Part shown: positions 7,449 through 24,452 of the stretch, in pieces
Position numbering within the stretch: the first letter of the stretch is position 1
How the letters are laid out: every line of letters starts with the position of its first letter
From: Candidatus Eiseniibacteriota bacterium
GTDB lineage: Bacteria > Joyebacterota > Joyebacteria > Joyebacterales > Joyebacteraceae
Assembly (NCBI GenBank): GCA_030622115.1
Contig: JAUXGN010000027.1
Location: 1 to 33,409, forward strand
DNA length: 33,409 nt
Reading direction: 5' to 3'
Position numbers and translations under genes: made by a program
The notes under the pieces: model-generated
Database searches by the model: none
What the model saw: the letters and a program-made list of their open reading frames with translations, nothing else
Told to the model about the DNA's origin: nothing

Positions 7449-7976
7449 CTAGCGATACAGGGACTTGATGGCACTCCAGGTCCGCTGCTCAACCGCTGTG
7501 ACGATGACGTCGATGTAGCCGGTCACGTAGTGGGGGTCGGCTCCATAGAGATCACCCCAGAGTTCCCACTGAATCTGCGTGCTCGTCATCACCGCGGGAA
7601 GAGTTACGTCGACCCATACGTCCGTGCCCTCGGTGCTGTAGATCTCGCCGTAGCCGCCATTGTTGTCGGCCCAGATGGCGGTCGGTACGGTGGGGGTCAC
7701 GGTCGTCGACCAACTGGGCCGTGTGTCGGTGATCATGGTGTAGCCCATTGTGGCCTGGTTAGCGAAGGTACCCGCGCCGAAGGGGAAGTGGATCTCAACG
7801 TTGGTGATCCACTCAGCGTCCGGTGATGCGTTCTGAACGAAGAACACAAACATGTAGGTGCCGCCGGGGCTCACGGTGGTCGGCGAAAGAAGCGTGACGG
7901 TTGCGTTGCCGATGTCGCGAGCAGCGACCGGAACTGCAAGCGCCAGAACGAGAAGAGCAATAGCTAGTATCTTCAT
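7449..7976 (-). CDS. secreted Ig-like protein with C-terminal WSAIKSLYR tag
   Basis: 175 residues from ATG at 7976, with AAGGGA 9 nt upstream. It opens with a signal peptide (MKILAIALLVLALAVPVAA). The mature part is rich in Thr, Val and aromatics in alternating pattern, for example SPTTVSPGGTYMFVFFVQN, as in extracellular beta-sandwich (CARDB/DUF11-like) domains. I do not recognise a named family. It ends VEQRTWSAIKSLYR, and the same tail ends four other secreted proteins at 20.2-24.5 kb whose bodies are unrelated to this one. The frame stays open upstream to a GTG at 8051, but that extension would add 25 residues before an obvious signal peptide. A promoter lies at 8133-8161, so the leader is about 150 nt. 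Confidence 0.85.
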   Translation of the reverse strand: MKILAIALLVLALAVPVAARDIGNATVTLLSPTTVSPGGTYMFVFFVQNASPDAEWITNVEIHFPFGAGTFANQATMGYTMITDTRPSWSTTVTPTVPTAIWADNNGGYGEIYSTEGTDVWVDVTLPAVMTSTQIQWELWGDLYGADPHYVTGYIDVIVTAVEQRTWSAIKSLYR

Positions 7977-8132
7977 CGTTTTCCGTCCCTTCTCTTGTGA
8001 GGGAAAAATCGTAGCGGCAGAACAATCTCTAGCTATGGTTCGAAGGGCCACCTCCCTTCAGGTAAACTCCGCTCCGGCGTCCGCAAGGAGAGTGTTGGAC
8101 GGACCGAGACGAGGCTTGTTCAGTACAAACCA

Positions 8133-8161
8133 ATACTACCACCAGACTACTACATCGTCAA
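8133..8161 (-). promoter_or_regulatory. promoter of the minus-strand secreted protein
   Basis: Read on the minus strand: TTGACG (8161-8156), a 17-nt spacer and TAGTAT (8138-8133). The leader to the ATG at 7976 is about 150 nt. It includes AAGGG/CCCTT arms that could pair around an AGGTGG sequence near 8045-8060. No leader peptide is evident. With the next promoter it forms a divergent pair. Confidence 0.7.
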
Positions 8162-8214
8162 GCCTGTTCTCAGTTGGACGAAGATGCAGCCACTTCGCCG
8201 GGGCGGGCGGTTCC

Positions 8215-8243
8215 TTGACCGGCGTGCATGTGCGTGATAGCAT
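8215..8243 (+). promoter_or_regulatory. promoter of the MBL-fold gene
   Basis: TTGACC at 8215-8220, a 17-nt spacer and TAGCAT at 8238-8243. It stands back to back with the minus-strand promoter, about 54 nt between their -35 boxes. The 5' leader of about 130 nt to GTG 8382 holds no feature I recognise. Confidence 0.7.
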
Positions 8244-8381
8244 CCGTATTGGTACTCTCACCCGTGCAGGAGCGGCTGGGCCGTTCGGGCGTGGCCGCGC
8301 CAATCGTAGACAGGTGTTGCTGTTAGCGACACGAGCAACTGCCCTGCGAAGGGGGGATGGGATTTCGTTCGGGAGGTTCAA

Positions 8382-9221
8382 GTGCGCCTCGGTGACATCA
8401 CGCTGACTGTGCTCGATGCTGAGACGTTTCTGTATGATGGGGGCGCGATGTTCGGCGTGGTGCCTCGTGTCATCTGGGACAGGCTTCTCAGGCCAGACGC
8501 TGAGAACAGGATCAAGCTCGCCGTCACGCCACTCCTCATCACTACCCCCGATTCAAAGATCCTGATCGATACCGGTTTCGGGACACGTCTAAGCAAGAAG
8601 GAGCGAAAGATCTTCGGACTTGGGGAAGGCAGAGACGTGGAGTCGGCGCTCAAGGCAGTTGGAGTTGAGCCCAAGGAGATAGATACGGTTGTCCTGACGC
8701 ACCTTCACATCGACCACGCGGGAGGGGCGACGAAGTGTGCGGGCGGCAATGTGATCCCGACGTTTCCGAACGCACGGTATCTCGTGCACGAACTTGAGTG
8801 GGAGGACGGTCTCGAACCGAACGTCATGAGCGCCGCTGCGTACCGGCGTGACGACTACGTGCCCCTCATGGAAGCCGGCGTCCTCGAGCTCATCGGGGAT
8901 GAACGAGACCTGGGCCACGGAGTGACAACTGTCCTGACAGGTGGGCACTGCCGCGGCCACATCATGGTCGTCGCAGAGACACCTTCGGGAACGGCCGTCT
9001 ACCCGGCTGATCTCATACCGAGCAGACATCATTTTCGCGCCGCGTACGTGGCCGGTGTGGATCTCTTCCCTCTGGATGTGGTTGAGCAAAAGATGCAGCT
9101 TCTGGAGGCGGCGGCACGTGAGGACTGGATCGTGATCCTCGACCACGATCCTGATGGAGCGGTCGGTCGTGTGGTTGAGGTGGAAGACGGGAGATACCGC
9201 TTCGAGGAACTGCCGGATTGA
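8382..9221 (+). CDS. MBL-fold metallo-hydrolase
   Basis: 279 residues from GTG 8382 (GGGAGG at 8371-8376). It is a metallo-beta-lactamase-fold hydrolase. The dinuclear metal motif is THLHIDHAGG at residues 106-115 (H107, H109, D111, H112). GGHCRGH supplies the next His, YPADL the bridging Asp, and ILDHDP the last His. The layout matches the large group of lactonase/glyoxalase-like MBL proteins, but the family name does not give the substrate. Butyrate kinase starts 54 nt downstream and is probably co-transcribed. Confidence 0.9.
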   Translation: MRLGDITLTVLDAETFLYDGGAMFGVVPRVIWDRLLRPDAENRIKLAVTPLLITTPDSKILIDTGFGTRLSKKERKIFGLGEGRDVESALKAVGVEPKEIDTVVLTHLHIDHAGGATKCAGGNVIPTFPNARYLVHELEWEDGLEPNVMSAAAYRRDDYVPLMEAGVLELIGDERDLGHGVTTVLTGGHCRGHIMVVAETPSGTAVYPADLIPSRHHFRAAYVAGVDLFPLDVVEQKMQLLEAAAREDWIVILDHDPDGAVGRVVEVEDGRYRFEELPD

Positions 9222-9275
9222 CGGCCGAGAAAGATTGACCGCCGCGCTCCATTTGGGCGATGGATAGGAGATGAC

Positions 9276-10355
9276 ATGTCAGCGAGCGAGAGAATCCTTG
9301 TTCTGAACCCCGGATCAACGACGACCAAGCTGGCGATCTTCGAAGGTGAGAAGTGTGTCCTCGAGGACACGATCAGACACAGCAAGGAAGATCTCGCACG
9401 GTTCGAGCATATCTCGGAGCAGCGAGACTACAGGGAATCGCTGATACTCGCGTTTCTCTCTGAGCATGGGATAGCCCTTGACTCACTCGACGGGACAGTG
9501 GGCAGAGGCGGCCTTATGCGGCCGATCAAGAGTGGGACCTATGCCGTGAACGATGCGATGCTCGAGGATCTGGAGAACTGTCACCTCGGCGAGCACGCGT
9601 CGAATCTTGGCGCAGTGCTGGCGTATGAGACTGCACGTGAGGCAGGTGTGCCTGCATTTGTCGTGGACCCTGTGGTCGTGGATGAGATGAACCCCATGGC
9701 GCGACTCTCAGGCGTGCCCGAGCTTCCGCGCTTGAGCATAGCCCATGCTCTCAACGTCAAGGCGATGGCCAGACGCGTCGCGCGTGAGATGAGGCGCGAG
9801 CTTTCCGAACTCAACCTTGTCGTCGCACATCTGGGAGGTGGTACGAGCGTCGTGGCGATTCGACAGGGGAAGATGACAGACGTCAGCGGCGCGATTTCGG
9901 CGGGTCCCTTCACGCCCGAGCGAGCAGGCAGCGTTCCTATCATGAAACTCGTTGATATGTGTTTCTCGGGTGACTTTGCCAAGGCTGAGGTGAAGAAAAG
10001 GCTCATGGGTGGCGGTGGTCTTGTCGCGTATCTGGGCACGAACGATGCGCGCGAGGTGGAGAACAGAATCCAGGCGGGCGACAAAGAGGCGGAACTCGTG
10101 ATGGACGCCATGATCTACCAGATAGCCAAGGAGATCGGGGCCATGGCGACGGTGCTCGAGGGCAAGGTCGACGCCGTGATCATGACCGGGGGACTTGCGA
10201 ACTCGGAGTACATCATGGACCGACTCGCCGTTCGTATCGGTTTCATCGGCAAGATCATCGTGGAACCGGGTGAGGACGAACTCGAAGCGTTGGCGCTTGG
10301 CTGTTTGCGTGTCCTGAGGGGCGAGGAAGAGGCGCTCGAGTATCCTGGGGGATGA
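9276..10355 (+). CDS. buk: butyrate kinase (or branched-chain fatty-acid kinase)
   Basis: 359 residues, normal for butyrate kinases of the ASKHA fold. The N-terminal [16 protein letters not shown] is the phosphate-1 loop. [21 protein letters not shown] and [13 protein letters not shown] are family signatures (HLGGG binds phosphate), and [10 protein letters not shown] is the adenosine motif. It interconverts an acyl phosphate and a carboxylate with ATP/ADP. The usual partner, phosphate butyryltransferase, is not next to it, so the acyl phosphate source is elsewhere or the real substrate is a branched-chain acid. GGAG is 5 nt before the ATG. tdk starts one base after the stop, so the two are an operon. 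Confidence 0.93.
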
Positions 10356-10356
10356 C

Positions 10357-10929
10357 ATGAGAGATCTTCACGACACGGGCTGGATCGAGGTTATCTGCGG
10401 CAGCATGTTCTCGGGCAAGAGTGAAGAACTCATTCGCCGCTTGAGGAGGGCGAAGATAGCCAAGCAGAAGGTCGTGACGTTCAAGCCCGCCATGGACGAT
10501 AGATATGATGAGGACGACATCGTATCTCATGACGATCGCCGGATTGAGTCGATTCGGGTGGAGACAGCCCTCGAGATACTCAATCACGTGGATGAGACCA
10601 CGGATGTCGTCGGCGTTGACGAGGGCCAGTTCATGGGAGCGGAACTTCCTGCCGTTTGTGAGCAGTTGGCGGACAGGGGCATCCGAGTCATCGTCGCGGG
10701 CCTCGATCAGGACTACCTCGGAAGGCCGTTCGAACCGATTCCACAGCTCCTCGCGGTAGCGGAGTACATAACGAAGACGCTCGCGGTCTGTATGAAATGC
10801 GGCAGACCCGCGAACCGGACGCAGAGGATCATCAGCAGCGATGAGCGCGTGATCGTTGGCGCCTCTGAAACGTATGAGGCTCGGTGCAGGGTCTGTTTCG
10901 ATCCGGGAGAGGCAGAGCCCGGGCGCTAG
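10357..10929 (+). CDS. tdk: thymidine kinase (type II)
   Basis: 190 residues. It phosphorylates thymidine to dTMP for salvage. The P-loop GSMFSGKS is at residues 15-22, and FKPAMDDRY follows. VGVDEGQF is the Walker B/catalytic Glu region. A structural zinc site is formed by CMKCG and CRVC near the C-terminus. It starts 1 nt after the buk stop. The terminator at 10961-10995 ends the unit. Confidence 0.95.
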
Positions 10930-10960
10930 TAGGGGGGATAAAGCCCCGGTTTGGGGTGTT

Positions 10961-10995
10961 GCCGCCGTGTCGCTTACGAGAGATGCGGCGGTTTT
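10961..10995 (+). terminator. terminator after tdk
   Basis: CCGCCG (10962-10967) pairs with CGGCGG (10986-10991), with a possible extra G-T pair outside, and TTTT follows at 10992-10995. It overlaps the neighbourhood of the next promoter. Confidence 0.6.
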
Positions 10996-10998
10996 GCG

Positions 10999-11027
10999 TT
11001 GCCCGGCGGTCACAAGCCGAATATACT
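10999..11027 (+). promoter_or_regulatory. promoter of yggS-yggT
   Basis: TTGCCC at 10999-11004, a 17-nt spacer and TATACT at 11022-11027. The leader to ATG 11075 is about 40 nt. Confidence 0.65.
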
Positions 11028-11074
11028 ATACGGTTCTACGATTCGAGATCGGGGTCGCTCAAAAGGCTGGAATC

Positions 11075-11758
11075 ATGGCGGTACGCGACAACATTCGTGA
11101 TGTGATGGAACGCATCGAACGAGCCGCGGATCGGGTTCTCAAGGATCCCGGGGATATCAAGCTCGTGGCCGTCACAAAGACGGTCGAGGTTTCCCTCATC
11201 GTGGAGGCCATTGAAGCCGGGATCAGCTGCGTCGGCGAGAACCGCATCCAGGAAGCAGCGCGCAAGTTTCCGGAGCTGCCTCCGGTCGAGAAGCACCTCG
11301 TGGGGCACCTGCAGACGAACAAGGTCAAGACCGCGATTGAGCTCTTCGATATCATCGAGTCGGTCGACAGTGTGCGTCTTGCCAGGGAGATATCGACTCG
11401 CTGTACCGCTGCCGGGGTGGAGGCGGATGTGCTCGTTGAGGTAAACACCTCCGGTGAGGAGTCGAAGTTTGGATTCGATCCGAGCGAAGTGATACAAGCG
11501 CTCGATGATATGTCCACGCTGCCGGGGCTCAAGGTGGTGGGACTTATGACCGTGGGGGCCTTCCTCCCGGACCCCGAGGATGTCAGACCCTGTTTCAGGA
11601 TGCTCAGGGCAATCCGGGATGAGATCGAGGAACGCGTGATCCCCGGCATAGCCATGGATCACCTCTCGATGGGCATGACGAATGACTTCGAGGTGGCGAT
11701 AGAAGAGGGCGCCACGATCGTGAGAGTCGGAAGAGCCATTTTCGGAGAGCGAGGATAG
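11075..11758 (+). CDS. yggS: YggS-family PLP homeostasis protein
   Basis: 227 residues, the usual size of YggS/ProSC/PLPBP. It is a TIM-barrel protein that binds pyridoxal phosphate and buffers its supply; no enzyme reaction is known. The PLP lysine lies in LVAVTKTVEV. Further signatures are GENRIQEA, HLVGHLQTNKVK, SVDS, LVEVNTSGEESKFGF and LSMGMTNDFEVAIEEGATIVRVGRAIFG. An upstream extension to 10856 would run through tdk and its terminator, so ATG 11075 is chosen; it follows a clear promoter. yggT begins 4 nt after the stop, a conserved pairing in many bacteria. Confidence 0.95.
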   Translation: MAVRDNIRDVMERIERAADRVLKDPGDIKLVAVTKTVEVSLIVEAIEAGISCVGENRIQEAARKFPELPPVEKHLVGHLQTNKVKTAIELFDIIESVDSVRLAREISTRCTAAGVEADVLVEVNTSGEESKFGFDPSEVIQALDDMSTLPGLKVVGLMTVGAFLPDPEDVRPCFRMLRAIRDEIEERVIPGIAMDHLSMGMTNDFEVAIEEGATIVRVGRAIFGERG

Positions 11759-11762
11759 ACGC

Positions 11763-12065
11763 GTGTTCGTTGCCGGTAATTTCCTGGAGGCGGTCGCTGC
11801 GGTCCTGAATATGGTACTCAGGGTCTATTCGTACTGTGTGCTCGCGGCTGTGATAATCTCCTGGGTGGCGCCGCGATCGGCGCATCCCGCCGTGATGTTC
11901 CTGAGAAGCATAACGGAACCACTCTTCTACCGCATACGCCGCGCGGTTCCGTTTCTGTATCAGTCGGGCATCGATTTCACTCCTCTTGTCGTCTTCTTCG
12001 GGATCGGACTCGTCAGAATGTTCGTCGTGTCGACGCTCTACCAGGCGGCAGCTCGACTCCAGTAA
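11763..12065 (+). CDS. yggT: YggT-family membrane protein
   Basis: 100 residues from GTG 11763. Two hydrophobic segments (about residues 10-36 and 70-93) surround a loop with FLRSITEPLFYRIRRAVP, the YggT signature in which TEP-hydrophobic-RR is conserved. It is an inner-membrane protein with a loosely defined role in osmotic response and cell-envelope or division processes. The yggS-yggT order is conserved and supports the call. Confidence 0.92.
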   Translation: MFVAGNFLEAVAAVLNMVLRVYSYCVLAAVIISWVAPRSAHPAVMFLRSITEPLFYRIRRAVPFLYQSGIDFTPLVVFFGIGLVRMFVVSTLYQAAARLQ

Positions 12066-12144
12066 GCAGGAGAACTGAGAACACTAGTCGACAGCGAGAG
12101 GCCCCCGCATTTCAGCGGAAGACCCAGACATCGGAGGAAGCATC

Positions 12145-12975
12145 ATGGCACGGGAACTTACACTCACCGCGAAGATCGAGAAGGCCGTTGGCTACATAAG
12201 GAAGAAGAGCGAGATCAAACCGCAGGTGGCAGTCGTTCTTGGGAGCGGCCTCGGGAAGCTCACCAATCTGATGACCGTTGATTCCGTGATCCCGTTCGAC
12301 AAGATCCCGTACTTCCCGAAGTCGGGGGTCGAAGGACACGCCGGCGAACTCGTACTCGGCAAGATCGGTCGTAAGCGTGTCGCCCTGATGAACGGCCGTG
12401 TTCACTACTACGAGGGCTACACCATGCAAGAGGTCACCTTCCCGATCCGGGTGCTGCGAGCGCTCGGAGCGAAGAAGCTGATTCTCACCTGCGCGGGTGG
12501 CGGCATGAATCCCCTTCAGGAGAAGGGTGACATCATCGCCATCGTCGACCAGATTAACCTGACGGGCGACAACCCACTGATCGGCCCGAACGACGATTCG
12601 CTGGGGACGCGTTTCCCGGATATGTCGCAGCCGTACGACAGAGAATACGTCAAACTCGCTGAGGAGATCGCTCTTGAGGAGCAGATCCCACTCAAGAAGG
12701 GTGTGTTTGTCGGCGTGGCCGGTCCGTGTCTTGAGACAGCGGCCGAGTATCGCTTTCTCAGTATGATCGGCGGAGATATCGTGAGCATGTCGATGGTTGC
12801 CGAGAACATCGTCGCCATCCACGGGAAGATGAGAGTGGTGGGGCTCGCCGTCGTTACGGACATATGTCTTCCGGACGCGCTGGAACCGGCAAGTCACAAG
12901 GAGATTCTCAAGGTCGCGCGAGCGACCGAGCCAAAGCTGACGCAGCTCGTATTCAGGCTTATTGAGAAGATGTAG
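12145..12975 (+). CDS. purine nucleoside phosphorylase (PNP/MTAP family)
   Basis: 276 residues. It cleaves purine nucleosides with phosphate to base plus (deoxy)ribose 1-phosphate. Visible sites are VVLGSGLGKL (phosphate), GHAGEL, MNGRVHYYEGY, LILTCAGGGMNP, GPNDDSLGTRFPDMS and AGPCLETAAEYR. The base-binding part differs from human PNP: the GMSTVPE motif is SMSMVAE, and the position matching human Asn243 is Asp (VVTDICLPD, about D239). In human PNP an Asn-to-Asp change there lets the enzyme accept 6-amino purines, so a broader or adenosine-type specificity is possible. The start has GGAGGA upstream. Confidence 0.92.
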   Translation: MARELTLTAKIEKAVGYIRKKSEIKPQVAVVLGSGLGKLTNLMTVDSVIPFDKIPYFPKSGVEGHAGELVLGKIGRKRVALMNGRVHYYEGYTMQEVTFPIRVLRALGAKKLILTCAGGGMNPLQEKGDIIAIVDQINLTGDNPLIGPNDDSLGTRFPDMSQPYDREYVKLAEEIALEEQIPLKKGVFVGVAGPCLETAAEYRFLSMIGGDIVSMSMVAENIVAIHGKMRVVGLAVVTDICLPDALEPASHKEILKVARATEPKLTQLVFRLIEKM

Positions 12976-13034
12976 AGGCCCCGCGCGGTTGTGCCGGGTC
13001 ATCCTGGACGAACCGCCGGGGGCAAGGGACACAT

Positions 13035-16000
13035 ATGGCGTTCAGAGAATTTCCAAAAGGCATGACGGCTCCAGAGATCGAGCACGAGGTGCTTGAGTTC
13101 TGGGACAGCGATCATACGTTTGAGCAAAGTGTGAGCGCTCGCGAGGGCGCCGAACGTTTCGTCTTCTTCGAGGGTCCTCCTACCGCCAACGGGCATCCGG
13201 GAGTTCATCACGTGCTCGCCCGGACCATCAAGGACATAGTCTGTCGCTACAAGACAATGTCCGGCTATCAGGTCGAGCGAAAGGCCGGTTGGGACACGCA
13301 CGGTCTGCCCGTGGAGATCGCGGTGGAGAAGCAACTCAACCTCAAGAGCAAGGAAGACATTGAGAAACTCGGCGTGGCCGAGTTCGCGAAGCAGTGCCAC
13401 AAGAGTGTATTCACCTACAAGGAAGAGTGGGAAGAACTCACAGGACGAATGGCGTACTGGGTCGACCTGAGCGATCCGTACATCACGTGCTCGAACGACT
13501 ACATCGAGTCCATCTGGCACATCCTGAAGCTGATGTGGGATCGCGATCTCATCTACCAGGGGCACAACATACTCCCGTATTGTCCTCGGTGCGGAACACC
13601 GCTGTCGAGCCACGAGGTGGCACAGGGCTACGCGGACACGGAGGACCCCTCGATCTTCATCAAGATGAAGATCAAGGGCGAGAAGGCGACCTCGTTCCTG
13701 ATCTGGACGACCACACCCTGGACGCTCATTTCAAACGTGGCCATCGCTGTCGCGCCTGACGAGACCTATGTTGTGGTTGATAACGGTGAGGAGAAACTGA
13801 TCCTCGCCGAGGCGCTCTTGTCTACGGTGCTGGGCAGCAACAGCTCCAGTGGGGATGAAGGGGACAACGACGACGGATCCGCCGGCGAATGTACCACATG
13901 GAATATCGTGGAGAGGAAGAAGGGTGCGGATCTCCTGGGGACCGAGTACGAGCCGCTCTTTAGCTTCGTCCCGTTCGATGAACGAGGCCACTACGTGATC
14001 GCAGGCGACTTCGTCACGCTTGATGACGGGACCGGCATCGTGCACATCGCTCCGGCATTCGGTGAGGATGACAGTCGTGCCGGGAAGGAGAACGCTCTGC
14101 CGTTCCTCCAGCCGGTAGATGGCGCCGGGAAGTTCACTGATGAGATAACGCCGTGGGCGGGCATGTTCATCAAGGATGCCGATCCTCTCATCATGAGTGA
14201 TCTTGAAGCGCGAGGACTCATGTACAAGCGAAGCACCGTCGTTCACACGTATCCGTTCTGCTGGCGGTGTGATTCCCCTCTCGTCTACTACGCCCGGAAC
14301 TCGTGGTACTTGAGGACGACACAGTTCAAGGACGCGATGATAGAGAACAACCGCACGATCAACTGGCACCCGAAGGAGATAGGCTTAAACCGTCTCGGTA
14401 ACTGGCTTGAGAACAACGTGGACTGGGCCATCTCGCGCGACAGGTACTGGGGCACGCCTCTCAACATCTGGATCTGTGACGAGTGCGGAGCGATGGACTC
14501 CATGGGCAGCATCGCGGAACTCAAGGAGAGGGCCGTGGAGCTACCGGAAGCGGAGATCGATCTTCACAAGCCGATGATCGACAGTGTGCGTCTCAAGTGT
14601 CTGAAGTGCTCTGGCTCAATGACCAGGACACCCGAGGTGATCGACTGCTGGTTTGACACAGGCAGCATGCCGTACGCGCAGTGGCACTGGCCGTTCGAGA
14701 ACGCGGAGGAATTCAACAGGAACTTCCCCGCTGACTTCATCGCCGAGGGAGTCGATCAAACGAGAGGCTGGTTCTACTCGCTGTTGGCGATCTCCACGAT
14801 CGTCTCCGGTACTGCGTCTTTCAAACGCTGTGTCGTGAACGACATGGTGCTCGACAAAAACGGCAAGAAGATGAGCAAGCGTGTCGGCAACATCGTCGAT
14901 TCGATGGAGATAATGGAGAAGTATGGAGCCGACGCTCTCAGATGGTACCTGATGGCGACCAGTCCGCCATGGATTCCGACGCGATTCGATTCTACCGGTG
15001 TGACCGAGACGGCGAGCAAGGTGATAGGGACGCTCCGCAACACCTACGGCTTCTTCTCCCTCTATGCGAACATCGACGGATTCGATGCCGTCGAGCACGA
15101 CGTCCCGCTCTCCGAGCGCCCGATGACGGACCGATGGATCATGTCCCGTCTTCACTCGACCGTGTCGGAAGTCACGCGCGCCATGGAAAACTACGACATC
15201 ACGAGGGCCGTCCGGAGGCTGCAGCACTTCGTACTTGAGGACGTATCCAACTGGTACGTGCGACTCTCCAGAGCGAGGTTCTGGAAGGGAGAGATGGATG
15301 AGGACAAGCGCGCGGCATTCGCGACGCTATTCGACGTTCTCCTGACGACGGCGAAAACAATGGCTCCCTTCGCTCCACTCATCTCGGAAGCCATCTACCG
15401 GAGTCTCCGAGAAGGAGCAAGCGCTGAGGCCACGGAGCACAGCGTGCATCTGAGTGTGTTTCCATCCGTGTCCGATGGCGTCATAGATGAGGGGCTTGAG
15501 GCCAATATGGGGCTCGCGAGATCTATTGTTGTTCTCGGGCGCGCCGCGAGGAATGTCTCAGGCATCAAGGTGCGGCAACCGCTTTCCAAGATCCTCGTCT
15601 CGGGTGTCCACGAGGCATCCAGGTCCGGCGCTGAGGAGCTCAAGGAGCTGATTCTGGCAGAGCTCAATGTGAAGAGCCTGGAGTGGGCGGAAGTAGGCAC
15701 ATTGGCCGTGCTCAGGGCATCGCCGATCTTCCCGGTTCTGGGACCGAAGCATGGGAAGAACGTGAACCAGGTGGCTGAGGTCATCCGGGCGCTCGCGGAG
15801 GAGGATGCCGGCGTTCTTGCGGGAGGCGGGAATGTCAGCGTGGCACTCGGCGAGGAGACGGTCGTTGTTGAGCCCGGCGATGTGGAGATAGAGACCGAAC
15901 CGCGGCCCGGACTGGCCGTGCAGACGGAAGGCACGCTGACGGTGGGGCTCGACCTCGAGCTCACGGTTGAACTCGAGGATGAGGGGTTTGCGCGGGAGAT

Positions 16001-16673: not shown

Positions 16674-16728
16674 ATCCGCCGAAGGTCAGACGGGTTCACT
16701 GATCGTCGACGAGGGGGGGCGGCTCATA

Positions 16729-17247
16729 GTGGACGGGGCAGGCAGGCAGGCGGGGCGCACGTGGGTCATGTTCCTGATCGCCGGCGTCATCGTCGTGCTC
16801 GATCAGATCGTCAAGGCGATCGTTGTCCACTCCATGCGTATGGGGTCTTCCATCGACATCCTGGGCTCGATCGTGCGTCTCACGAGGACGCAGAATTCAG
16901 GAGCCGCCTTCGGGCTCTTCAAGGACGGGCGTGTCGCCTTCATTATCGTCTCAGCCGCGGCTTCAATTGCCATCATCGTCCTGAGGCGCGAGATCGCAAG
17001 AATGCGGTCTTGGGAACGGATGTCGTTCGGTCTTGTTCTTGGAGGCGCGATAGGTAACCTGATCGACCGCGTTCGCGTCGGCGCAGTCGTGGACTTCCTT
17101 GACATCGGCGTCGGTTCGGTCCGCTGGCCGGCTTTCAATGTCGCCGACAGCGCGATAACGGTCGGCGTTTCGATTCTCGCCTTCTACCTCATCTTTCGTG
17201 CGGATTCACACCCCGCATCAGCACCGGAGGATAACCGGGAGCGCTGA
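16729..17247 (+). CDS. lspA: lipoprotein signal peptidase
   Basis: 172 residues from GTG 16729. It cleaves lipoprotein signal peptides before the lipid-modified Cys, in the inner membrane. Four transmembrane segments are present. Catalytic and conserved blocks are VVLDQIVK, TQNSGAAFGLF, GGAIGNLIDRVRVGAVVDFLD and FNVADSAITVG; the Asp residues in the last two form the aspartyl site. The start is not certain. GTG 16729 has a purine-rich GAGGGGGG upstream; ATG 16768 would give the usual short N-terminus but has a weak ribosome site. Its product would process the lipoprotein encoded at 25394. The stop overlaps the next ATG by 1 nt. Confidence 0.92.
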   Translation: MDGAGRQAGRTWVMFLIAGVIVVLDQIVKAIVVHSMRMGSSIDILGSIVRLTRTQNSGAAFGLFKDGRVAFIIVSAAASIAIIVLRREIARMRSWERMSFGLVLGGAIGNLIDRVRVGAVVDFLDIGVGSVRWPAFNVADSAITVGVSILAFYLIFRADSHPASAPEDNRER

Positions 17248-18638: not shown

Positions 18639-19701
18639 CAAGCCACGCCTGCCGCGGCGCAGCCGCGCATGGTTCATCCGCGAGTTCATTCTCGTAGTTG
18701 TTCTCGGTGCCTTTCTCCTTTATGCACTTGGCCACGTTGTCGCATTCAGGTCGACACGTGAGATCGAGCACCGAGTCGTCGTGGAGATCCCGGAAGGCGC
18801 GAGTGTCGGGACCATAGCGGCGATGCTGGCGGGCGAGGGGCTCACGGTTGCGCCGCGCAGATTCGTTCTGGCCGCGAGAATCCTTGGCCACGAAGAGAGC
18901 CTCCAGGCTGGATCGTATGAGTTCGGTCCGCGGTTCTCCGAGATGGATGTCCTCGTGGCACTGAGTCGTGGGGAGGTGGCGGTTCGAACAGTGACGGTTC
19001 CCGAGGGATTCCGGGCCGAGCAGATAGCGAGGCTCTTTGATGCGGCCGTCGGCATGGATCCTGAGGAGTTTGTGAGGCTCGTGCACGATCCCACCGCTGT
19101 TGCCAGGCTCGGATTCCATGCGCCATCACTCGAAGGCTATCTCATGCCGGACACCTACCGTGTCGAACTCGACATGACTGTCGGCGAGGCGATCGAGATG
19201 ATGACCTGGGGGACGAGGCGGGTCATGGAGCGCTATTCATCCAGAGCAGAATCGCTCTCCATGACGATGCATGAGATTCTCACACTTGCCTCCATAGTCG
19301 AGTCGGAGGCAGTATTCAATAGCGAACGAGGCAGGATCTCCGCCGTGTATCACAATCGTCTCAGAAACTCCTGGAGACTTGAGGCGGATCCCACGGTGCG
19401 CTACGCGAAGGGCGTCTACCACCGGAAGCTCTACTACAGTGATCTGAGAGACAAGTCCCCCTACAACACCTATCGCAACAAGGGTCTTCCACCGGGGCCG
19501 ATATGCAGCCCCGGGACGGCATCGATCGTCGCTGCTCTCCGCCCGCAGGAGGGAATCGATGACTATTTCTTTGTCGCCAACGGAGATGGTACGCACACCT
19601 TCACCCGCACATTTCGTGAACATGCTGCAGCGAAACAACGGATCGCGCGCGAGCGTGAGGAGCGAGCTCAATTTTCGCTTGACGCTGTCCCCGAGCAGTG
19701 A
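18616..19701 (+). CDS. mltG: endolytic murein transglycosylase MltG
   Basis: 361 residues, overlapping the fusion gene by 23 nt. An Arg-rich cytosolic tail and one transmembrane helix (about residues 22-42) are followed by a periplasmic LysM-like and YceG domain. It cuts nascent glycan strands and is thought to end their growth. The catalytic region ASIVESEA contains E229/E231, followed by VYHNRL, LEADPTVRYA, YNTYRNKGLPPGPICSPG and YFFVANGDGTHTFTRTFREH, all MltG hallmarks. The yqgF-mltG order is widely conserved. Confidence 0.95.
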   Translation: MRKRYRGDKPRLPRRSRAWFIREFILVVVLGAFLLYALGHVVAFRSTREIEHRVVVEIPEGASVGTIAAMLAGEGLTVAPRRFVLAARILGHEESLQAGSYEFGPRFSEMDVLVALSRGEVAVRTVTVPEGFRAEQIARLFDAAVGMDPEEFVRLVHDPTAVARLGFHAPSLEGYLMPDTYRVELDMTVGEAIEMMTWGTRRVMERYSSRAESLSMTMHEILTLASIVESEAVFNSERGRISAVYHNRLRNSWRLEADPTVRYAKGVYHRKLYYSDLRDKSPYNTYRNKGLPPGPICSPGTASIVAALRPQEGIDDYFFVANGDGTHTFTRTFREHAAAKQRIAREREERAQFSLDAVPEQ

Positions 19702-19724
19702 TAGCGTGCAGCGTCAGGCAGGGT

Positions 19725-19746
19725 CGTTCGACCACGTGGTCGAACG
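19725..19746. promoter_or_regulatory. 22-nt perfect palindrome
   Basis: Positions 19725-19735 are the exact reverse complement of 19736-19746, centred on CCACGTGG. It lies 23 nt after mltG and 46 nt before the small membrane gene. There is no T-run, so a regulator operator is as likely as a terminator or RNA hairpin. Confidence 0.55.
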
Positions 19747-19791
19747 CGTGTGTCGTTCTTAGCTGATGCTGCTACCGGGAGGGAATGTCCT

Positions 19792-19983
19792 GTGACCGTG
19801 AGAACCGTGGCCATCTTCAGTGTTGCGACCGTCATGATCGCAATGGGCTTCTGGTGGCTCTCGCGCGGGTCGCTCACCCTGGCTCCAGTACTGCTCGTCG
19901 GCGGCTACTGCGTTGCGATTCCGGTAGCCATCATGGCGGGCGGCGAAGGACCCGGTGATCGATCCGAAGGTAGCGACAAGTAA
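19792..19983 (+). CDS. small two-helix membrane protein
   Basis: 63 residues from GTG 19792, with GGGAGGG at 19777-19783 (8-nt spacing). An earlier ATG at 19750 is in frame but lacks a ribosome site and adds only polar residues. Two hydrophobic segments (about residues 5-20 and 24-46) carry FWWLSRGSLTLAPVLLVGGYCVAIPVAIM, and the tail is short and charged. I recognise no domain with a known role. The Pro/Gly-containing second helix and the good ribosome site argue it is real. It ends 1 nt before tRNA-Val. Confidence 0.7.
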   Translation: MTVRTVAIFSVATVMIAMGFWWLSRGSLTLAPVLLVGGYCVAIPVAIMAGGEGPGDRSEGSDK

Positions 19984-19984
19984 A

Positions 19985-20061
19985 GGGCGAATAGCTCAGT
20001 TGGTTAGAGCACCTGCCTTACACGCAGGGGGCCACAGGTTCGAGTCCTGTTTCGCCCACCA
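19985..20061 (+). tRNA. tRNA-Val (TAC anticodon)
   Basis: Acceptor GGGCGAA/TTCGCCC. Anticodon stem CCTGC/GCAGG around CTTACAC gives anticodon TAC. T-loop GGTTCGAGTCC, discriminator A20058, CCA encoded at 20059-20061. It starts directly after the stop of the small membrane gene, so the two may share a transcript. Confidence 0.97.
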
Positions 20062-20180
20062 GCACGATTATGAATCCGGACACCCCCACGGGAATCTGAG
20101 GTAATGAGCTGATCGCTCGGGGACTAGGAGGTGAGGCAGAGTAGATTGATAGATTCTGGATACTACTCTCGGACTTGTGA

Positions 20181-20200
20181 ACCGACCGAGAACGGTCGGT
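20181..20200 (+). promoter_or_regulatory. hairpin in the leader of the first secreted paralogue
   Basis: ACCGACCG (20181-20188) pairs perfectly with CGGTCGGT (20193-20200) over the loop AGAA. It ends 6 nt before the GGAGGG ribosome site of the gene at 20220. It may shape translation or be a regulator site. Confidence 0.5.
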
Positions 20201-20219
20201 GTGACTGGAGGGAAGCAAG

Positions 20220-20816
20220 ATGAGATACATTGTGGCAGTGCTCCTGGTTGTCGTCTTGACCGTAGCGCCGGCGGTGGCTGGTATGAACCCGGAATGCAAG
20301 TTCTTCGTTACGTTCGCCGATACAAGCTCGGTGACCTACCAGAACTTGGCGGACGGGGCCCGCGTGGACCCGGTCATGTACACGGCCTTCGATGCGCATT
20401 TCGGCATTCTTGACTACGGTTGCTTCACGACCATTTCGTTCATGATCGAGAACACGCCCGGCATGTCGTCACCGGTTGCCTATGACAATCTTCTGCCGGG
20501 CAACCTGGCGATCGGTGCGTACGAGACCGGCGTGACGCTGGCTTCGACCATTCAGCTTGACAGCTCAGTGCAAGGCCCCTTCTACTTCTTTGCCACCGGC
20601 CACTACTTCTATCTCAACGTGCCGGGAGAGATCAAGATAGTGGACCATCCCGAATTCCCGCGTTGGGTCGTCAGCTGCAATGATGAAGTCGACTACTACT
20701 GTGTCTGGCAGAATGGTGGAGTTGCCATGGACGCGGTCGTCGTTGAGGCCGAGTGCTACGGTGACGTGCCGGTCGAGTCCTCCAGTTGGGGCGCGATCAA
20801 GTCTCTGTACAGGTAG
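20220..20816 (+). CDS. secreted family protein, member 1, with C-terminal WGAIKSLYR tag
   Basis: 198 residues with a signal peptide (about residues 1-20, ending in AVA) and GGAGGG 7 nt before the ATG. The mature domain, about 150 residues, has the family pattern: MYTAFDAHFG, FTTISFMIENTPGM, YDNLLPGNLAIGAYETGVTLAS, GHYFYLNVPGEIKIVDHPEFPRWVVSCND, DYYCVWQNGGV. This reads as an all-beta extracellular domain with a conserved Cys pair; a distant resemblance to cohesin-like sandwiches is a guess. It is the most divergent of the four tagged members. It ends VESSSWGAIKSLYR. No clear promoter is visible in the 158 nt after tRNA-Val, so it may be read from upstream. Confidence 0.88.
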   Translation: MRYIVAVLLVVVLTVAPAVAGMNPECKFFVTFADTSSVTYQNLADGARVDPVMYTAFDAHFGILDYGCFTTISFMIENTPGMSSPVAYDNLLPGNLAIGAYETGVTLASTIQLDSSVQGPFYFFATGHYFYLNVPGEIKIVDHPEFPRWVVSCNDEVDYYCVWQNGGVAMDAVVVEAECYGDVPVESSSWGAIKSLYR

Positions 20817-20845
20817 GGTGTTCAAGACATCGGCCACTATTTGAC

Positions 20846-20874
20846 TTGCATGAGCCTGCATCAAGTGATAGCAT
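20846..20874 (+). promoter_or_regulatory. promoter-like site directly before a hairpin
   Basis: TTGCAT at 20846-20851, a 17-nt spacer and TAGCAT at 20869-20874. A transcript would begin near 20881 and run at once into the hairpin at 20889-20922, so it could give a very short RNA. Confidence 0.45.
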
Positions 20875-20888
20875 GAATATGATCTGAT

Positions 20889-20922
20889 GAATCGGGCCCG
20901 CCCCCCGTGGCGTGCCCGATTC
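20889..20922 (+). terminator. hairpin after secreted member 1
   Basis: GAATCGGGC (20889-20897) pairs with GCCCGATTC (20914-20922), with further CGCC/GGCG pairing inside. The T-rich tail is weak. It is likely the terminator of the gene ending at 20816. Confidence 0.6.
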
Positions 20923-21112
20923 TGCTGTCACCATGCTGTGGCAGTCCGATTGAAGGTGGTTTCTGACAGTGCAAAGGCGCACCTGCGGGCTTGGTTCTTG
21001 CTCCGTATGTGAATAGAATGGGTGCTATTGCGTCAAAACACGTACACCGAGCGGAAAACAAGTCTAGAGGTGCTTCCAGAGTGTGAACAGGCTGACGCTT
21101 GGCAATTCGTGC
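20923..21112. other. non-coding spacer
   Basis: Part of a 490-nt stretch without a gene between 20817 and 21306. Apart from the promoter-like site and hairpin before it, and the promoter and leader after it, I see no ORF, repeat or structure I can support here. Confidence 0.5.
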
Positions 21113-21141
21113 TTGCAAAGAAGTCCAAGCTGTGCTAACAT
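21113..21141 (+). promoter_or_regulatory. promoter of the dockerin-like gene
   Basis: TTGCAA at 21113-21118, a 17-nt spacer and TAACAT at 21136-21141. It gives a leader of about 160 nt before ATG 21307. Confidence 0.7.
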
Positions 21142-21187
21142 CTACAATGATTAGTATTGGTGGCAGAACAGGTTATCAACGAAGGGG

Positions 21188-21235
21188 GGACTATAGTCCG
21201 AAAGGAGGGCGGAAGCGCCAAGTTGGCGATCTTTT
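21188..21235 (+). promoter_or_regulatory. leader structures: 12-nt palindrome and attenuator-like hairpin
   Basis: GGACTATAGTCC (21188-21199) is a perfect palindrome. Behind it CGCC (21216-21219) can pair with GGCG (21225-21228), followed by ATCTTTTT to 21235. The stem is short, so an attenuator is possible but weak. Confidence 0.35.
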
Positions 21236-21306
21236 TGGGTCCAGATATAGGGCTCGGAAGTGCGTGCAATCCCAGCACGAATCGTGTCCTAAAGGAGGTA
21301 GAGAGA

Positions 21307-21945
21307 ATGTCAAGAATACTGGCGGGTGTGTTGGCTGGCTGCCTGATCCTCGCCGTAGCCGGCGTTGCCGGTGCCGGCATCCCTGATCCCGATCTTTCGC
21401 AGATCACTCTGCAGCCGGTGCAGACCAATTCTGGTCTGATGACTTGCTGGCAGGGAGATGCTCCGGGTTTCGAGATGCTCCAGGTCGAGGCTAAGAGAAC
21501 CGATGCGACAGCGATCGAGGGGATTCCCTCCACGAGTTTCTTCTTCACGATCACCGGTGGTGCTGACGTGACGATTACTTGTGAGAGCGTTCCGCCCGAG
21601 ACGGATGCGACCGGCCTAATCCAGTTCTCGGTCGTCGCAAACGAGGCCATCGCGCATCCGCTCGCAAGCGGCGGCGGTTCTGGTCTTACTGACGGCGTGG
21701 CGATCGGTATCGACGTGCAGATCTACACGGTTGCTCTGACGAACGGTGTGTCACTCACATGCAACACGGTTGACTACACTCTGAGTGGCGACGTCAATCC
21801 TGTCGACTTCGGTAAGTTCGCTGTTGATTTCGGTACCGATGTTGGCGTGGATCCGTATCGCGAGCGAAGCGATTTTGACTGGAGCGGTGGAATCATCGGT
21901 CCTGTCGATTTCGGCAAGTTCGCTGCTCACTTTGGAGCGCACTAG
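21307..21945 (+). CDS. secreted protein with a C-terminal dockerin-like repeat
   Basis: 212 residues from ATG 21307, with the strong ribosome site AAAGGAGGT 7 nt upstream. A signal peptide covers about residues 1-24 (LAVAGVAGAG). The middle is a Thr/Ser-rich beta domain of unknown type. The last ~50 residues hold a twofold repeat, GDVNPVDFGKFAVDFG and GPVDFGKFAAHFGAH. The second copy is preceded by the EF-hand-like loop DFDWSGG. Paired Asp-rich loops with a following helix are the pattern of type I dockerins, which bind cohesin domains through calcium. The first loop is poor, so calcium binding is not certain. It has no WxxIKxLYR tail. The neighbours are family members whose fold might act as partner; that is speculation. 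Confidence 0.8.
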   Translation: MSRILAGVLAGCLILAVAGVAGAGIPDPDLSQITLQPVQTNSGLMTCWQGDAPGFEMLQVEAKRTDATAIEGIPSTSFFFTITGGADVTITCESVPPETDATGLIQFSVVANEAIAHPLASGGGSGLTDGVAIGIDVQIYTVALTNGVSLTCNTVDYTLSGDVNPVDFGKFAVDFGTDVGVDPYRERSDFDWSGGIIGPVDFGKFAAHFGAH

Positions 21946-22155
21946 TCGTAGATGGTAGGGGCAATATCTTGCACGGGTGAGGTGATGGGTGGGCGGATGC
22001 ATTGAGGCTTTCGTTCTATTTCCCGACTCAGGAACCAGAACGCACCATCAATGTGGTACCGCATCAGTGGGGTGGTGCCCGAGCTAATCATCATGGACTG
22101 ACCGAGGTTGTCTGCGATGCTGTCGAAGACACCTCTGTTGGGAGGAGATCAAATA

Positions 22156-22701
22156 ATGCGTACACTTCTTGCTTTCTTGCTGGTCGTTGCGATCGCCGTT
22201 CCGGCGTTTGCCGGCGACAACCCTGCTATTCAGATGTACGTGGACTTCGAGGACGGTGGCTACGTTCACAGAGCCGATCCTGCGATGTACACGGCGTTCG
22301 ATGCTTTCTTCATGGTTGACACGTTTGTTGGCTTCACGACCATTTCGTTCATGGTTGGGAACACGCCCGGCATGTCGACACTGGTTGCCTACGACAACCT
22401 CCTGCCAGGTAACCTGGCAATTGGCGCGTACGAGACCGGCATCACGCTTGCCTCGACCGAGTGCATGACGGTTGCACCGCTGGCCGTTGCTGTTGGTCAC
22501 TACTTCTATCTCAACGTGCCCGGCGACATTCAGATCCTCGACCACCCCGAGTTCCCGCGGTGGGTTGTTGACTGCAACGACCAGGTCGATTACTACTGCG
22601 TCCTGATCAATGGTGGCGTCCACCAGGATCCGATCGAGGGCGACTGTGGCAGCCCGGTCGAGAACAGCTCCTGGGGCGGTATCAAGGCTCTGTACAGGTA
22701 G
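22156..22701 (+). CDS. secreted family protein, member 2, with C-terminal WGGIKALYR tag
   Basis: 181 residues from ATG 22156 (GGAGGA at 22141-22146). The signal peptide is MRTLLAFLLVVAIAVPAFAG. The mature part is almost identical to members 3 and 4: IQMYVDFEDGGYVHRADPAM, FVGFTTISFMVGNTPGM, ILDHPEFPRWVVDCNDQVD, YYCVLINGGV. Two Cys (VVDC, YYC) are conserved and could form a disulfide. It ends VENSSWGGIKALYR. DNA identity to member 3 is very high from just after the signal-peptide codons, yet the signal peptide and leader differ. I see no good promoter in the 210 nt after the dockerin-like gene. Confidence 0.9.
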   Translation: MRTLLAFLLVVAIAVPAFAGDNPAIQMYVDFEDGGYVHRADPAMYTAFDAFFMVDTFVGFTTISFMVGNTPGMSTLVAYDNLLPGNLAIGAYETGITLASTECMTVAPLAVAVGHYFYLNVPGDIQILDHPEFPRWVVDCNDQVDYYCVLINGGVHQDPIEGDCGSPVENSSWGGIKALYR

Positions 22702-22736
22702 TTCTAGTCCCAATGCAGTATGATTACCGAGGATTG

Positions 22737-22764
22737 GACGGGTGGCGGATTCATGCCACCCGTC
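22737..22764 (+). terminator. terminator after member 2
   Basis: Perfect 10-bp stem GACGGGTGGC/GCCACCCGTC (22737-22746 with 22755-22764), followed by a T-rich TCCTTTT. The same core (CGGGTGGC) recurs after members 3 and 4. Confidence 0.85.
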
Positions 22765-22818
22765 TCCTTTTGTGTCGTAGGACCCCTAGGAGGTCCGTCT
22801 AGTACGGTGGAATTGTGG

Positions 22819-22847
22819 TTGCAGACCGTAGCTTGATATGATACAAT
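22819..22847 (+). promoter_or_regulatory. promoter of member 3
   Basis: TTGCAG at 22819-22824, a 17-nt spacer and TACAAT at 22842-22847. Identical boxes and spacing stand before member 4. The leader to ATG 23036 is about 180 nt. Confidence 0.8.
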
Positions 22848-22892
22848 GGTTGTGTGGTAGTGAAGTGCAAAGGTGGATTGAGTGTTGGCAAG

Positions 22893-22942
22893 CGGCCCCG
22901 TCGCCCCCTGGGCCGGAAGACTAGGCGGCGCGGAAGGTGGTC
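22893..22942 (+). ncRNA. candidate structured leader of member 3
   Basis: CGGCCC (22893-22898) pairs with GGGCCG (22910-22915), then GACTA (22919-22923) with TGGTC (22938-22942). In the second copy the GACTA arm is GACCA, so C-G becomes U-G and pairing is kept. It matches no riboswitch class I know; common descent by duplication may explain the conservation. Confidence 0.4.
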
Positions 22943-23035
22943 GCAAGACTTGTTGAGATAATGGTCAGTGTATCCGGCATGCGGACAGAGGAGTCGGATG
23001 ATTGGCCGTTCATGTCTCAGAGGGAGGAAACACAA

Positions 23036-23584
23036 ATGAAGAGCTTGCTTGTTGCTGCTCTGGTTCTCGTAGTTGCTATTCCGGCGTTCGCCGGCAACAA
23101 CCCTGCTATTCAGATGTACGTGGACTTCGAGAACGGTGGCTACGTTCACAGAGCCGATCCTGCGATGTACACGGCGTTCGATGCTTTCTTCATGGTTGAC
23201 ACGTTTGTTGGCTTCACGACCATTTCATTCATGGTTGGGAACACGCCCGGCATGTCGACACTGGTTGCCTACGACAACCTCCTGCCAGGTAACCTGGCAA
23301 TTGGTGCGTACGAGACCGGCATCACGCTTGCCGCGACCGAGTGCATGATAGATGTGCCTCTGGCCGTTGCTGTTGGTCACTACTTCTATCTCAACGTGCC
23401 CGGCGACATCCAGATCCTCGATCACCCGGAGTTCCCGCGGTGGGTTGTTGACTGCAACGACCAGGTCGATTACTACTGCGTCCTGATCAATGGTGGTGTC
23501 TGCCAGGATCCGCTTGAGGGCGACTGCCCCATCGTTCCGGTTGAGGAAGGCTCCTGGGGTTCGATCAAGGCCCTGTACAGGTAG
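23036..23584 (+). CDS. secreted family protein, member 3, with C-terminal WGSIKALYR tag
   Basis: 182 residues from ATG 23036 (GGAGG 7-8 nt upstream, in GGGAGGAAACACAA). The frame is open back to 22937, but that extension has no ribosome site and would precede a clear signal peptide (MKSLLVAALVLVVAIPAFAG). The mature domain matches member 2 nearly base for base over its first ~220 nt. Differences gather after TECM (TECMIDVPLAVAV) and in the variable stretch before the tail (CQDPLEGDCPIVP). It ends VEEGSWGSIKALYR. The long leader and its own promoter and terminator make it a single-gene unit. Function unknown; secretion is the only safe statement. Confidence 0.9.
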   Translation: MKSLLVAALVLVVAIPAFAGNNPAIQMYVDFENGGYVHRADPAMYTAFDAFFMVDTFVGFTTISFMVGNTPGMSTLVAYDNLLPGNLAIGAYETGITLAATECMIDVPLAVAVGHYFYLNVPGDIQILDHPEFPRWVVDCNDQVDYYCVLINGGVCQDPLEGDCPIVPVEEGSWGSIKALYR

Positions 23585-23615
23585 ATTTCTCAGCACGCGA
23601 AATAGTGGTTAGAGA

Positions 23616-23642
23616 ACGGGTGGCGCTTCCGGCGCCACCCGT
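23616..23642 (+). terminator. terminator after member 3
   Basis: Perfect 11-bp stem ACGGGTGGCGC/GCGCCACCCGT (23616-23626 with 23632-23642), loop TTCCG, followed by CTTCTTTG. Its sequence is identical to the one after member 4. Confidence 0.88.
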
Positions 23643-23695
23643 CTTCTTTGTGTACAGAACGAGCGTATCGTGGATCCGTCTTGTACGGATTGTCA

Positions 23696-23724
23696 TTGCA
23701 GGCCGTGGCTTGATATGGTACAAT
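23696..23724 (+). promoter_or_regulatory. promoter of member 4
   Basis: TTGCAG at 23696-23701, a 17-nt spacer and TACAAT at 23719-23724. Both boxes are identical to those of member 3. Confidence 0.8.
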
Positions 23725-23769
23725 ACTGGTGCAATTGAGAAGTGCAAAGATGGATTGAGCGTTGGTAGG

Positions 23770-23816
23770 CGGCCCCGTCGCTCCTTGGGCCGGAAGACCA
23801 GGCAGCAAATGTGGTC
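23770..23816 (+). ncRNA. candidate structured leader of member 4
   Basis: CGGCCC (23770-23775) with GGGCCG (23787-23792), then GACCA (23796-23800) with TGGTC (23812-23816). Same two hairpins as in the member 3 leader, while the loops differ in sequence and length. Confidence 0.4.
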
Positions 23817-23906
23817 GTGACGGTTGTTGAGGTGAGAGTCAGTGTATCCGGCATGCCGACAGAGGAATCGGGTACCTGACGTCCATGTTGACGGGAGGAA
23901 ACACAA

Positions 23907-24452
23907 CTGAAGAGCTTGCTCGTTGCTGCTCTCGTGCTTGCAGTAGCCATTCCGGCGTTTGCCGGCGACAATGTTGGCATTCAGATGTACGTGGACTTCA
24001 CGGACGGTGGCTATGTGCACAGAGCCGATCCTGCGATGTACACGGCGTTCGACGCTTTCTTCATGGTTGACAACTTCGTTGGTTTCACGACCATTTCGTT
24101 CATGATTGGGAACACACCCGGCATGTCGACACTGGTTGCCTACGACAACCTCCTGCCTGGTAACCTGGCAATTGGCGCGTACGAGACCGGCATCACGCTT
24201 GCCGCGACCGAGTGCATGACGGTTGCACCGCTGGCCGTTGCTGTTGGTCACTACTTTTATCTCAACGTGCCCGGCGACATCATGATCCTCGATCACCCCG
24301 AGTTCCCGCGGTGGGTTGTTGACTGCAACGACCAGGTCGATGACTACTGCGTCCTGATCAATGGTGGCGTTTGCAAGGATCCGCTCCCGGGCGATCCTTG
24401 GTGTCCGGTTGAGAACAGCTCCTGGAGTAACATCAAGGCCATGTACAGGTAG
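23907..24452 (+). CDS. secreted family protein, member 4, CTG start, C-terminal WSNIKAMYR tag
   Basis: 181 residues if read from CTG 23907. The alignment with member 3 is exact around the start (GGAGGAAACACAA then ATG there, CTG here), so the ATG has mutated to CTG while ribosome site, spacing and signal peptide (LKSLLVAALVLAVAIPAFAG) are intact. TTG 23916 is the next possible start but would cut three residues and lengthen the spacing. The rest of the frame is intact and closely matches members 2 and 3, so this is not a decayed gene. It ends VENSSWSNIKAMYR, the most divergent form of the tag. Expression may be lower than that of member 3. Confidence 0.85.
   Translation: MKSLLVAALVLAVAIPAFAGDNVGIQMYVDFTDGGYVHRADPAMYTAFDAFFMVDNFVGFTTISFMIGNTPGMSTLVAYDNLLPGNLAIGAYETGITLAATECMTVAPLAVAVGHYFYLNVPGDIMILDHPEFPRWVVDCNDQVDDYCVLINGGVCKDPLPGDPWCPVENSSWSNIKAMYR

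Follow-up and report, generated by a model that had tools for sequence, protein, structure and literature searches.

A short C-terminal tail on secreted proteins of Candidatus Eiseniibacteriota as a probable signal for type IX export

Introduction

As described in PMC10994853, the type A C-terminal domains (CTDs) of the type IX secretion system (T9SS) bind inside the SprA translocon against loops of PorV, the contacts being made mostly by hydrophobic stretches and a single conserved lysine of the CTD. Shorter signals have been reported: Prevotella intermedia carries reduced CTDs beside long ones (48 short and 32 long, according to PMC11969387), and, in a study cited in the same paper, no more than the last 22 residues of Hbp35 proved absolutely required. 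A 2025 paper gives the T9SS as restricted to Bacteroidota (PMC12618676). Here, we describe a tail of about 15 residues that ends many secreted proteins of a Candidatus Eiseniibacteriota bacterium and that is probably a portable sorting signal, read by type IX machinery in place of a CTD. The tail came to light in a stretch of 33,409 nucleotides (assembly GCA_030622115.1, contig JAUXGN010000027.1), called the window below, which is one whole contig of a 2.63 Mb host genome assembled in 98 contigs.

Results

A preliminary description of the window, made from its letters alone, had reported five tails on signal-peptide proteins, each directly before a TAG stop, with four of the proteins paralogous and the fifth, on the minus strand, unrelated in its body. 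The five tails are present as claimed (Table 1). The four plus-strand tagged bodies are paralogues, with 59-65% identity to the first, and the minus-strand body shows no BLAST relation to them and falls in another cluster, whose members come from loci L026, L118, L151 (twice) and L178. The TAG stop is common to all five tails of the window but not to the tails of the host genome as a whole, which end at TGA and TAA as well. In the host genome, the strict pattern W[GS]xIKx[LMFVI]YR-stop, searched as a DNA pattern, was found 30 times flush with a stop codon, and a relaxed pattern (W-x-x-[IVM]-K-x-hydrophobic-[YF]-basic or polar-stop) 47 times; the reversed patterns, used as control, gave 0 matches in both cases. 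When the stop requirement was removed, the strict matches numbered 36, of which 30 are flush with the stop, 5 end 2-12 residues early and 1 is internal. The motif is thus a C-terminal feature with rare short extensions, 35 of the 36 copies lying at most 12 residues from a stop. One of the 30 flush matches (L004) and one of the five near-stop matches, a 58-residue open reading frame (ORF; L219), are without a convincing secreted body. The sole internal copy (L218:291; G000:C42:291-316) lies in a segment that resembles an insertion inside a MAM-like ORF.

The tail is carried by many unrelated proteins. From 188 loci we collected 205 tagged ORFs with the relaxed tail, counted as distinct when their last 40 residues differed; in 31 the reading frame is open at its 5' end. 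The logo of these 205 tails gives the consensus [ST]-P-V-E-x-[ST]-[ST]-W-G-x-I-K-[AS]-[LM]-Y-R, after a variable linker; the motif ends at the stop and no hydrophobic helix follows it. The W, I, K, Y and R of the logo are largely forced by the search pattern; conservation at positions that are not forced is seen in P (127/205), V (139/205) and E (142/205) at -15 to -13 and in S/T at -10 (191/205). Clustering took 186 of the 205 bodies, 19 trimmed bodies shorter than 60 residues being excluded, and sorted them into 59 BLAST clusters; in the host alone, 42 tagged bodies form 17 clusters. A signal-peptide-like start, called by a simple hydrophobicity rule, was found in 88 of 99 tagged stop-to-stop ORFs of at least 150 codons; among the other ORFs of these loci, the figure is 133 of 508.

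A signal peptide is predicted for 163 tagged proteins, of which 148 went through family scans (Pfam and NCBIfam) and 15 were left out by eye as near-duplicates or for their doubtful starts. Among the best 25 of 33 Pfam families and 25 of 26 NCBIfam families, the bodies match beta-helix (20), Chlam_PMP (10) and choice-of-anchor J (8) families, and further FG-GAP, CBM_20, lamin-tail, NHL, MAM, Cleaved_Adhesin, cohesin and thioester families; no Pfam or NCBIfam model among these covers the tail. Three tagged proteins (L111, L133 and L128) have, by eye, lipobox-like signal peptides ending in ...VGGC, ...LVGC and ...LPGC, and are putative tagged lipoproteins. The preliminary description had compared the tail to a sorting signal without a hydrophobic helix and had seen confinement to one family, or frequent internal or cytosolic occurrence, as speaking against the comparison. 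With 59 body clusters, carriers that have signal peptides and all but one of the 36 strict host copies near the stop, the comparison is supported. No published description of the tail was found in the literature searched, in which matches to the motif string were unrelated.

On homologous bodies, the tail and type A-like domains are interchangeable. A BLAST search turned up 21 homologues of tagged bodies that lack the tail; in six of them, a FlgD_ig/T9SS type A-like domain forms the end (L065, L069, L096 twice, L075 and L207; four were recognised by regular expression and two by eye). About half of the remaining homologues are truncated at a contig end or finish in a tail that varies from the pattern or is slightly longer, and a few have neither signal, including the untagged fifth paralogue of the window, which matches a tagged relative at 46% over 138 residues. 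Among the loci examined, only one ORF carries both signals, a short one in the host (L215; G000:C16:567-592), where the FlgD_ig match stops before the end of the domain and is followed by TTWGRIKALYRPCERPTAN. The last residue of the type A-like domains is R or K in 82 of the 92 cases in these loci, with an end run like [RK]K[MVL]VLL[RK].

The distribution of the tail links it to the T9SS. Strict tails were found in all 20 genomes examined from the phylum of the window, which represent eight genera of one family; each holds 7-45, and the control gave 0. Other labels among the matches listed (80 of 112 stretches) are Eisenbacteria, Krumholzibacteriota, Latescibacterota, Effluviviaceae, Coatesbacteria, Cloacimonadota, Gemmatimonadota, UBP1 and 'bacterium'; no tagged protein was obtained for a match labelled Erysipelotrichaceae (L134), which is probably due to chance. 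The preliminary description had proposed looking for a gene that co-occurs with the tail across genomes, and the gene for SprA, a component of the export machine, does so. SprA_N (PF14349) and the relaxed tail were sought in the same 386 genomes, and SprA_N was matched in 111 of them, including the host, 105 matches being above the cut-off. Outside the window's family (366 genomes, 94 with SprA and 272 without), SprA is found in all 16 genomes that have three or more relaxed tails. At least one tail is present in 47/94 of the SprA-encoding genomes (reversed control 18/94) and in 35/272 of the genomes without SprA (reversed control 37/272), and the tail matches of this last group are therefore background. 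Within the family, SprA was found in 17 of 20 genomes, and the three others are 78, 73 and 57% complete. As far as these counts reach, the tail is restricted to genomes that encode SprA. A contrast with tag-free SprA-encoding genomes was dropped because the five that first looked tag-free by the strict pattern (G085, G255, G383, G296 and G044) gave 13, 22, 65, 2 and 20 tails, respectively, with the relaxed one.

The host itself encodes SprA (TIGR04189, 547 bits for a cut-off of 200; L221) and PorU (NF033707, 534 bits for a cut-off of 420; L224), each above the cut-off set by NCBI. A PorV-family gene stands directly beside that for PorU (NF033709, 243 bits for a cut-off of 90) and scores 179 bits with the narrower PorV model, below the cut-off of 250. 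The PorV family NF033709 was matched in all 21 strict-tag genomes tested, with 16 matches in the host, where FlgD_ig has at least 102 matches (all scored candidates). At least two C25 peptidases of the host resemble PorU, the fuller one being that of L224 and the weaker one lying in the window (Table 1). This second peptidase reaches 269 bits with the PorU model NF033707 (cut-off 420) and ends in a FlgD_ig/T9SS type A-like domain (FlgD_ig 2e-06), not in the tail.

In a group of SprA-encoding genomes the tail ends a single-copy protein. Eleven such genomes were chosen, among the matches listed, by the form WG[SA]IKA[LMI]FR, and in each of them this form ends a small secreted protein that is orthologous across the 11 (L265-L275). 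The form is the single hit in nine genomes; two (G026 and G346) also have other, unconvincing matches. The body of this protein matches type A-like-ended ORFs in L197, L085, L237 and L141 (E-values of 2e-8 to 0.003). A gene for PorD (DUF4835) is close to the tagged gene in 3 of the 11 loci, directly upstream in L267 and L269 and one gene away in L274; the PorD matches are above the Pfam gathering cut-off and below the NCBIfam equivalog cut-off. In L269, a gene of the PorV/PorQ family (42 bits, cut-off 90) lies on the other side of that for PorD. PorD is described as a part of the T9SS extended translocon (PMC10994853) and as binding PorW (PMC8754138), and its loss is reported to lower secretion efficiency in P. 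gingivalis. Around the 11 tagged genes, we saw no common neighbour family beyond PorD (3/11) and pairs found in two loci each (L271 and L272 among them). An FnIII-like nature of the single-copy protein, suspected by eye, was not confirmed: there was no Pfam fn3 match at E-values up to 1 in the nine of 11 proteins scanned.

The AlphaFold model of the tagged protein at 23036..23584, built from an alignment of 15 rows, has a mean predicted local distance difference test score (pLDDT) of 84.8. The body is predicted as a beta-sandwich, with pLDDT mostly >90, followed by a low-confidence linker and by a short helix over the tag, the last two blocks having pLDDT values of 54 and 46. Its best PDB matches are cohesin modules (E-value ~1e-4, template-modelling score ~0.5). 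For the minus-strand protein, the model is poor (mean pLDDT 50) and it, too, ends in a helix. By these predictions, the tail is not a beta-sandwich CTD.

In the window, the secreted protein encoded at 21307-21945 (plus strand), among the cohesin-fold genes, has at its end what look by eye like two dockerin-like repeats, NPVDFGKFAVDFG and GPVDFGKFAAHFG; these gave no Pfam match at E-values up to 1. Taken with the predicted fold, this protein and those encoded at 20220-25265 could form a surface cohesin-dockerin system. Further downstream, the ORF at 25673-26773 (plus strand) appears by eye to join a metallophosphatase/5'-nucleotidase-like part to several CxxCH haem motifs.

Table 1. Tails, tagged proteins and related features of the window
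Feature	Position	Strand	Remarks
Tail VEQRTWSAIKSLYR	7452-7493	minus	Flush with TAG
Tail VESSSWGAIKSLYR	20772-20813	plus	Flush with TAG
Tail VENSSWGGIKALYR	22657-22698	plus	Flush with TAG
Tail VEEGSWGSIKALYR	23540-23581	plus	Flush with TAG
Tail VENSSWSNIKAMYR	24408-24449	plus	Flush with TAG
Tagged secreted protein, 175 residues, signal peptide MKILAIALLVLALAVPVAAR	7449..7976	minus	Family of L026/L118/L151/L178
Tagged secreted protein, family with motif DHPEFPRW	20220..20816	plus	Cohesin-like fold predicted for a paralogue
Tagged secreted protein, paralogue of the 20220..20816 protein	22156..22701	plus	
Tagged secreted protein, same paralogue family	23036..23584	plus	AlphaFold-modelled
Tagged secreted protein, fourth paralogue	23916..24452	plus	TTG start
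Untagged paralogue with signal peptide	24684..25265	plus	Internal contrast
C25 peptidase resembling the T9SS sortase PorU	26835..30557	plus	Peptidase_C25 6.1e-57

Discussion

The data make it probable that type IX machinery reads the tail as a short portable sorting signal. The Sec signal peptide would take the cargo across the inner membrane, the tail of about 15 residues would be recognised in the periplasm by the SprA translocon with a PorV-like carrier, and the type IX machinery would then move the protein to the surface, where it may stay or be released. With its W, I, L/M, Y and two basic residues, a short amphipathic peptide of this kind might in principle bind as a type A CTD does. Passage, anchoring and maturation had all been offered as roles of the tail in the preliminary description, and it is its place among these three that we infer here. 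With less assurance, a little short of an even chance, we suggest that the tail forms a new class of T9SS signal, in which a probably helical peptide of 15 residues replaces a whole CTD. Such a signal may have begun on the small secreted protein that many SprA lineages would encode near porD and have spread to dozens of surface proteins in the lineages labelled Eisenbacteria, Effluviviaceae and Krumholzibacteriota, where it would have a receptor of its own.

Several observations weigh against reading the tail as a type IX signal. The co-occurrence with SprA is strong and is confounded by ancestry, since the T9SS lineages are related; the interchange with type A-like domains and the gene context, for their part, do not rest on ancestry alone. 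SprA is not sufficient for the tail, as 47 of the 94 SprA-encoding genomes outside the family show none. Three of the 16 genomes with three or more tails are weak cases: G346 has one convincing tail of three and two control matches, G122 has three tails alongside two control matches, and G161 has three putative tails, its SprA match being weak. G121 has a tail-like contig end and no SprA match. Gene neighbourhood gives further points. Among the neighbours scanned, no recognised T9SS gene is close to 8 of the 11 single-copy tagged genes, and PorD is described in PMC10994853 as dispensable in F. johnsoniae, its loss being without detectable effect. A dedicated neighbour gene for the tail, considered for the host, was set aside: tagged genes lie close to PorV-family genes no more often than expected, 3 of 47 being within 5 kb against an expected number of about 2.9 (hand count). 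No sorting-signal or CTD model is among the listed families of the 148 tagged proteins, and none of the five tagged window proteins has a match to a CTD model. Finally, the tail is without sequence or fold similarity to the type A CTD, and its predicted form is a short low-confidence helix with no beta-strand or sandwich.

The main rival explanation, which we consider unlikely, is that the tail is not an export signal but a handle for maturation or anchoring, acting after or beside export in organisms that have a T9SS as well: it would be cut off and a surface sugar or lipid put in its place, or it would be bound by a receptor in the outer membrane or at the surface. The PorU-like C25 peptidases of the host are in keeping with such a handle, and the CTDs of F. 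johnsoniae have been proposed in PMC12618676 to hold both secretion and targeting signals. The putative tagged lipoproteins also bear on it, since anchoring alone may not be the point of the tail in these proteins. Against a mere handle, homologous bodies have the tail in place of the type A-like domain and not in addition to it, an indication that the tail provides for export as well; moreover, no tail-specific neighbour enzyme was seen in the 11 loci of the single-copy protein.

It is quite improbable that the tail belongs to some other outer-membrane route, its link to SprA reflecting shared ancestry only. The absence of CTD features from the tail and the relatedness of the SprA-encoding lineages would fit this, but the interchange with type A-like domains, the closeness of PorD in 3 of 11 loci and the lack of any excess over the control in the 272 genomes without SprA all argue against it. 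Hardly credible is the explanation that the tails are no signal and descend from a copied 3' gene end (by a recombination cassette or gene conversion), for although several tagged genes stand in tandem clusters (in the window and in L064), the 30 strict host tails differ in synonymous codons, conservation in the 205 collected tails extends to the unforced P, V, E and S/T but not to the x positions, and the tail is found on bodies of 17 clusters in the host alone and in every one of the 20 phylum members examined.

If the tail is indeed a type IX sorting signal, it would help to decipher the surface proteomes of several uncultured phyla, in which tagged proteins could be listed as cell-surface or exported. 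The T9SS would then be addressable by a peptide far shorter than the published signals compared here, the shortest of which have 40-55 residues, and type IX export would extend well beyond the Bacteroidota. The main text of the paper on the phylum Candidatus Effluviviacota (PMC11323493) mentions neither the T9SS nor cohesin or dockerin. A portable signal of 15 residues would also make recognition by SprA and PorV directly testable, and may serve as a small display tag.

How does the tail compare with known signals? PEP-CTERM, LPXTG, GlyGly-CTERM and Myxo-CTERM are likewise short conserved motifs at the C-terminus of many proteins with unrelated bodies, and some tagged bodies match families named after anchors (choice-of-anchor J, and rhombosortase- and myxosortase-dependent M36). 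The signals of sortases, exosortases and rhombosortases, however, consist of a motif, a hydrophobic helix and a basic tail, whereas here there is no helix and the motif is the end of the protein. Among T9SS signals, NCBI also has a further CTD class, 'type C'. The type B CTD resembles the tail in being a second signal class within one genome, as reported in PMC12618676. With 150-235 residues it is far longer, and PorP/SprF-like shuttle genes are often adjacent to it; of the 47 tagged host genes, 3 have a PorV-family match within 5 kb, about 2.9 being expected, the PorP/SprF models themselves not having been searched. As far as tested, type B membership of the tail thus fails on length and gene linkage. 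The short CTDs of Prevotella intermedia have 40-55 residues, with motifs B, D and E and a predicted three-stranded sheet, none of which is apparent in the tail, by eye or in the model.

The type A CTD (TIGR04183, Por_Secre_tail PF18962, FlgD_ig PF13860) offers both the sharpest differences and the closest likeness. It measures roughly 100 residues according to PMC12618676, to be set against about 15 for the tail, and is an Ig-like domain of 70-100 residues, whereas no such domain is predicted or matched by a model for the tail. Lacking this defining feature, the tail falls outside the type A CTD family. It is also found on shorter ORFs than the type A-like domain, with a median stop-to-stop length of 284 vs 530 codons. 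Like the type A CTD, however, the tail is terminal on Sec-exported, mostly beta-rich proteins; the two occur in the same genomes, where they are interchangeable on homologous bodies, and the type A-like domain and the tail alike have a basic last residue after two hydrophobic ones.

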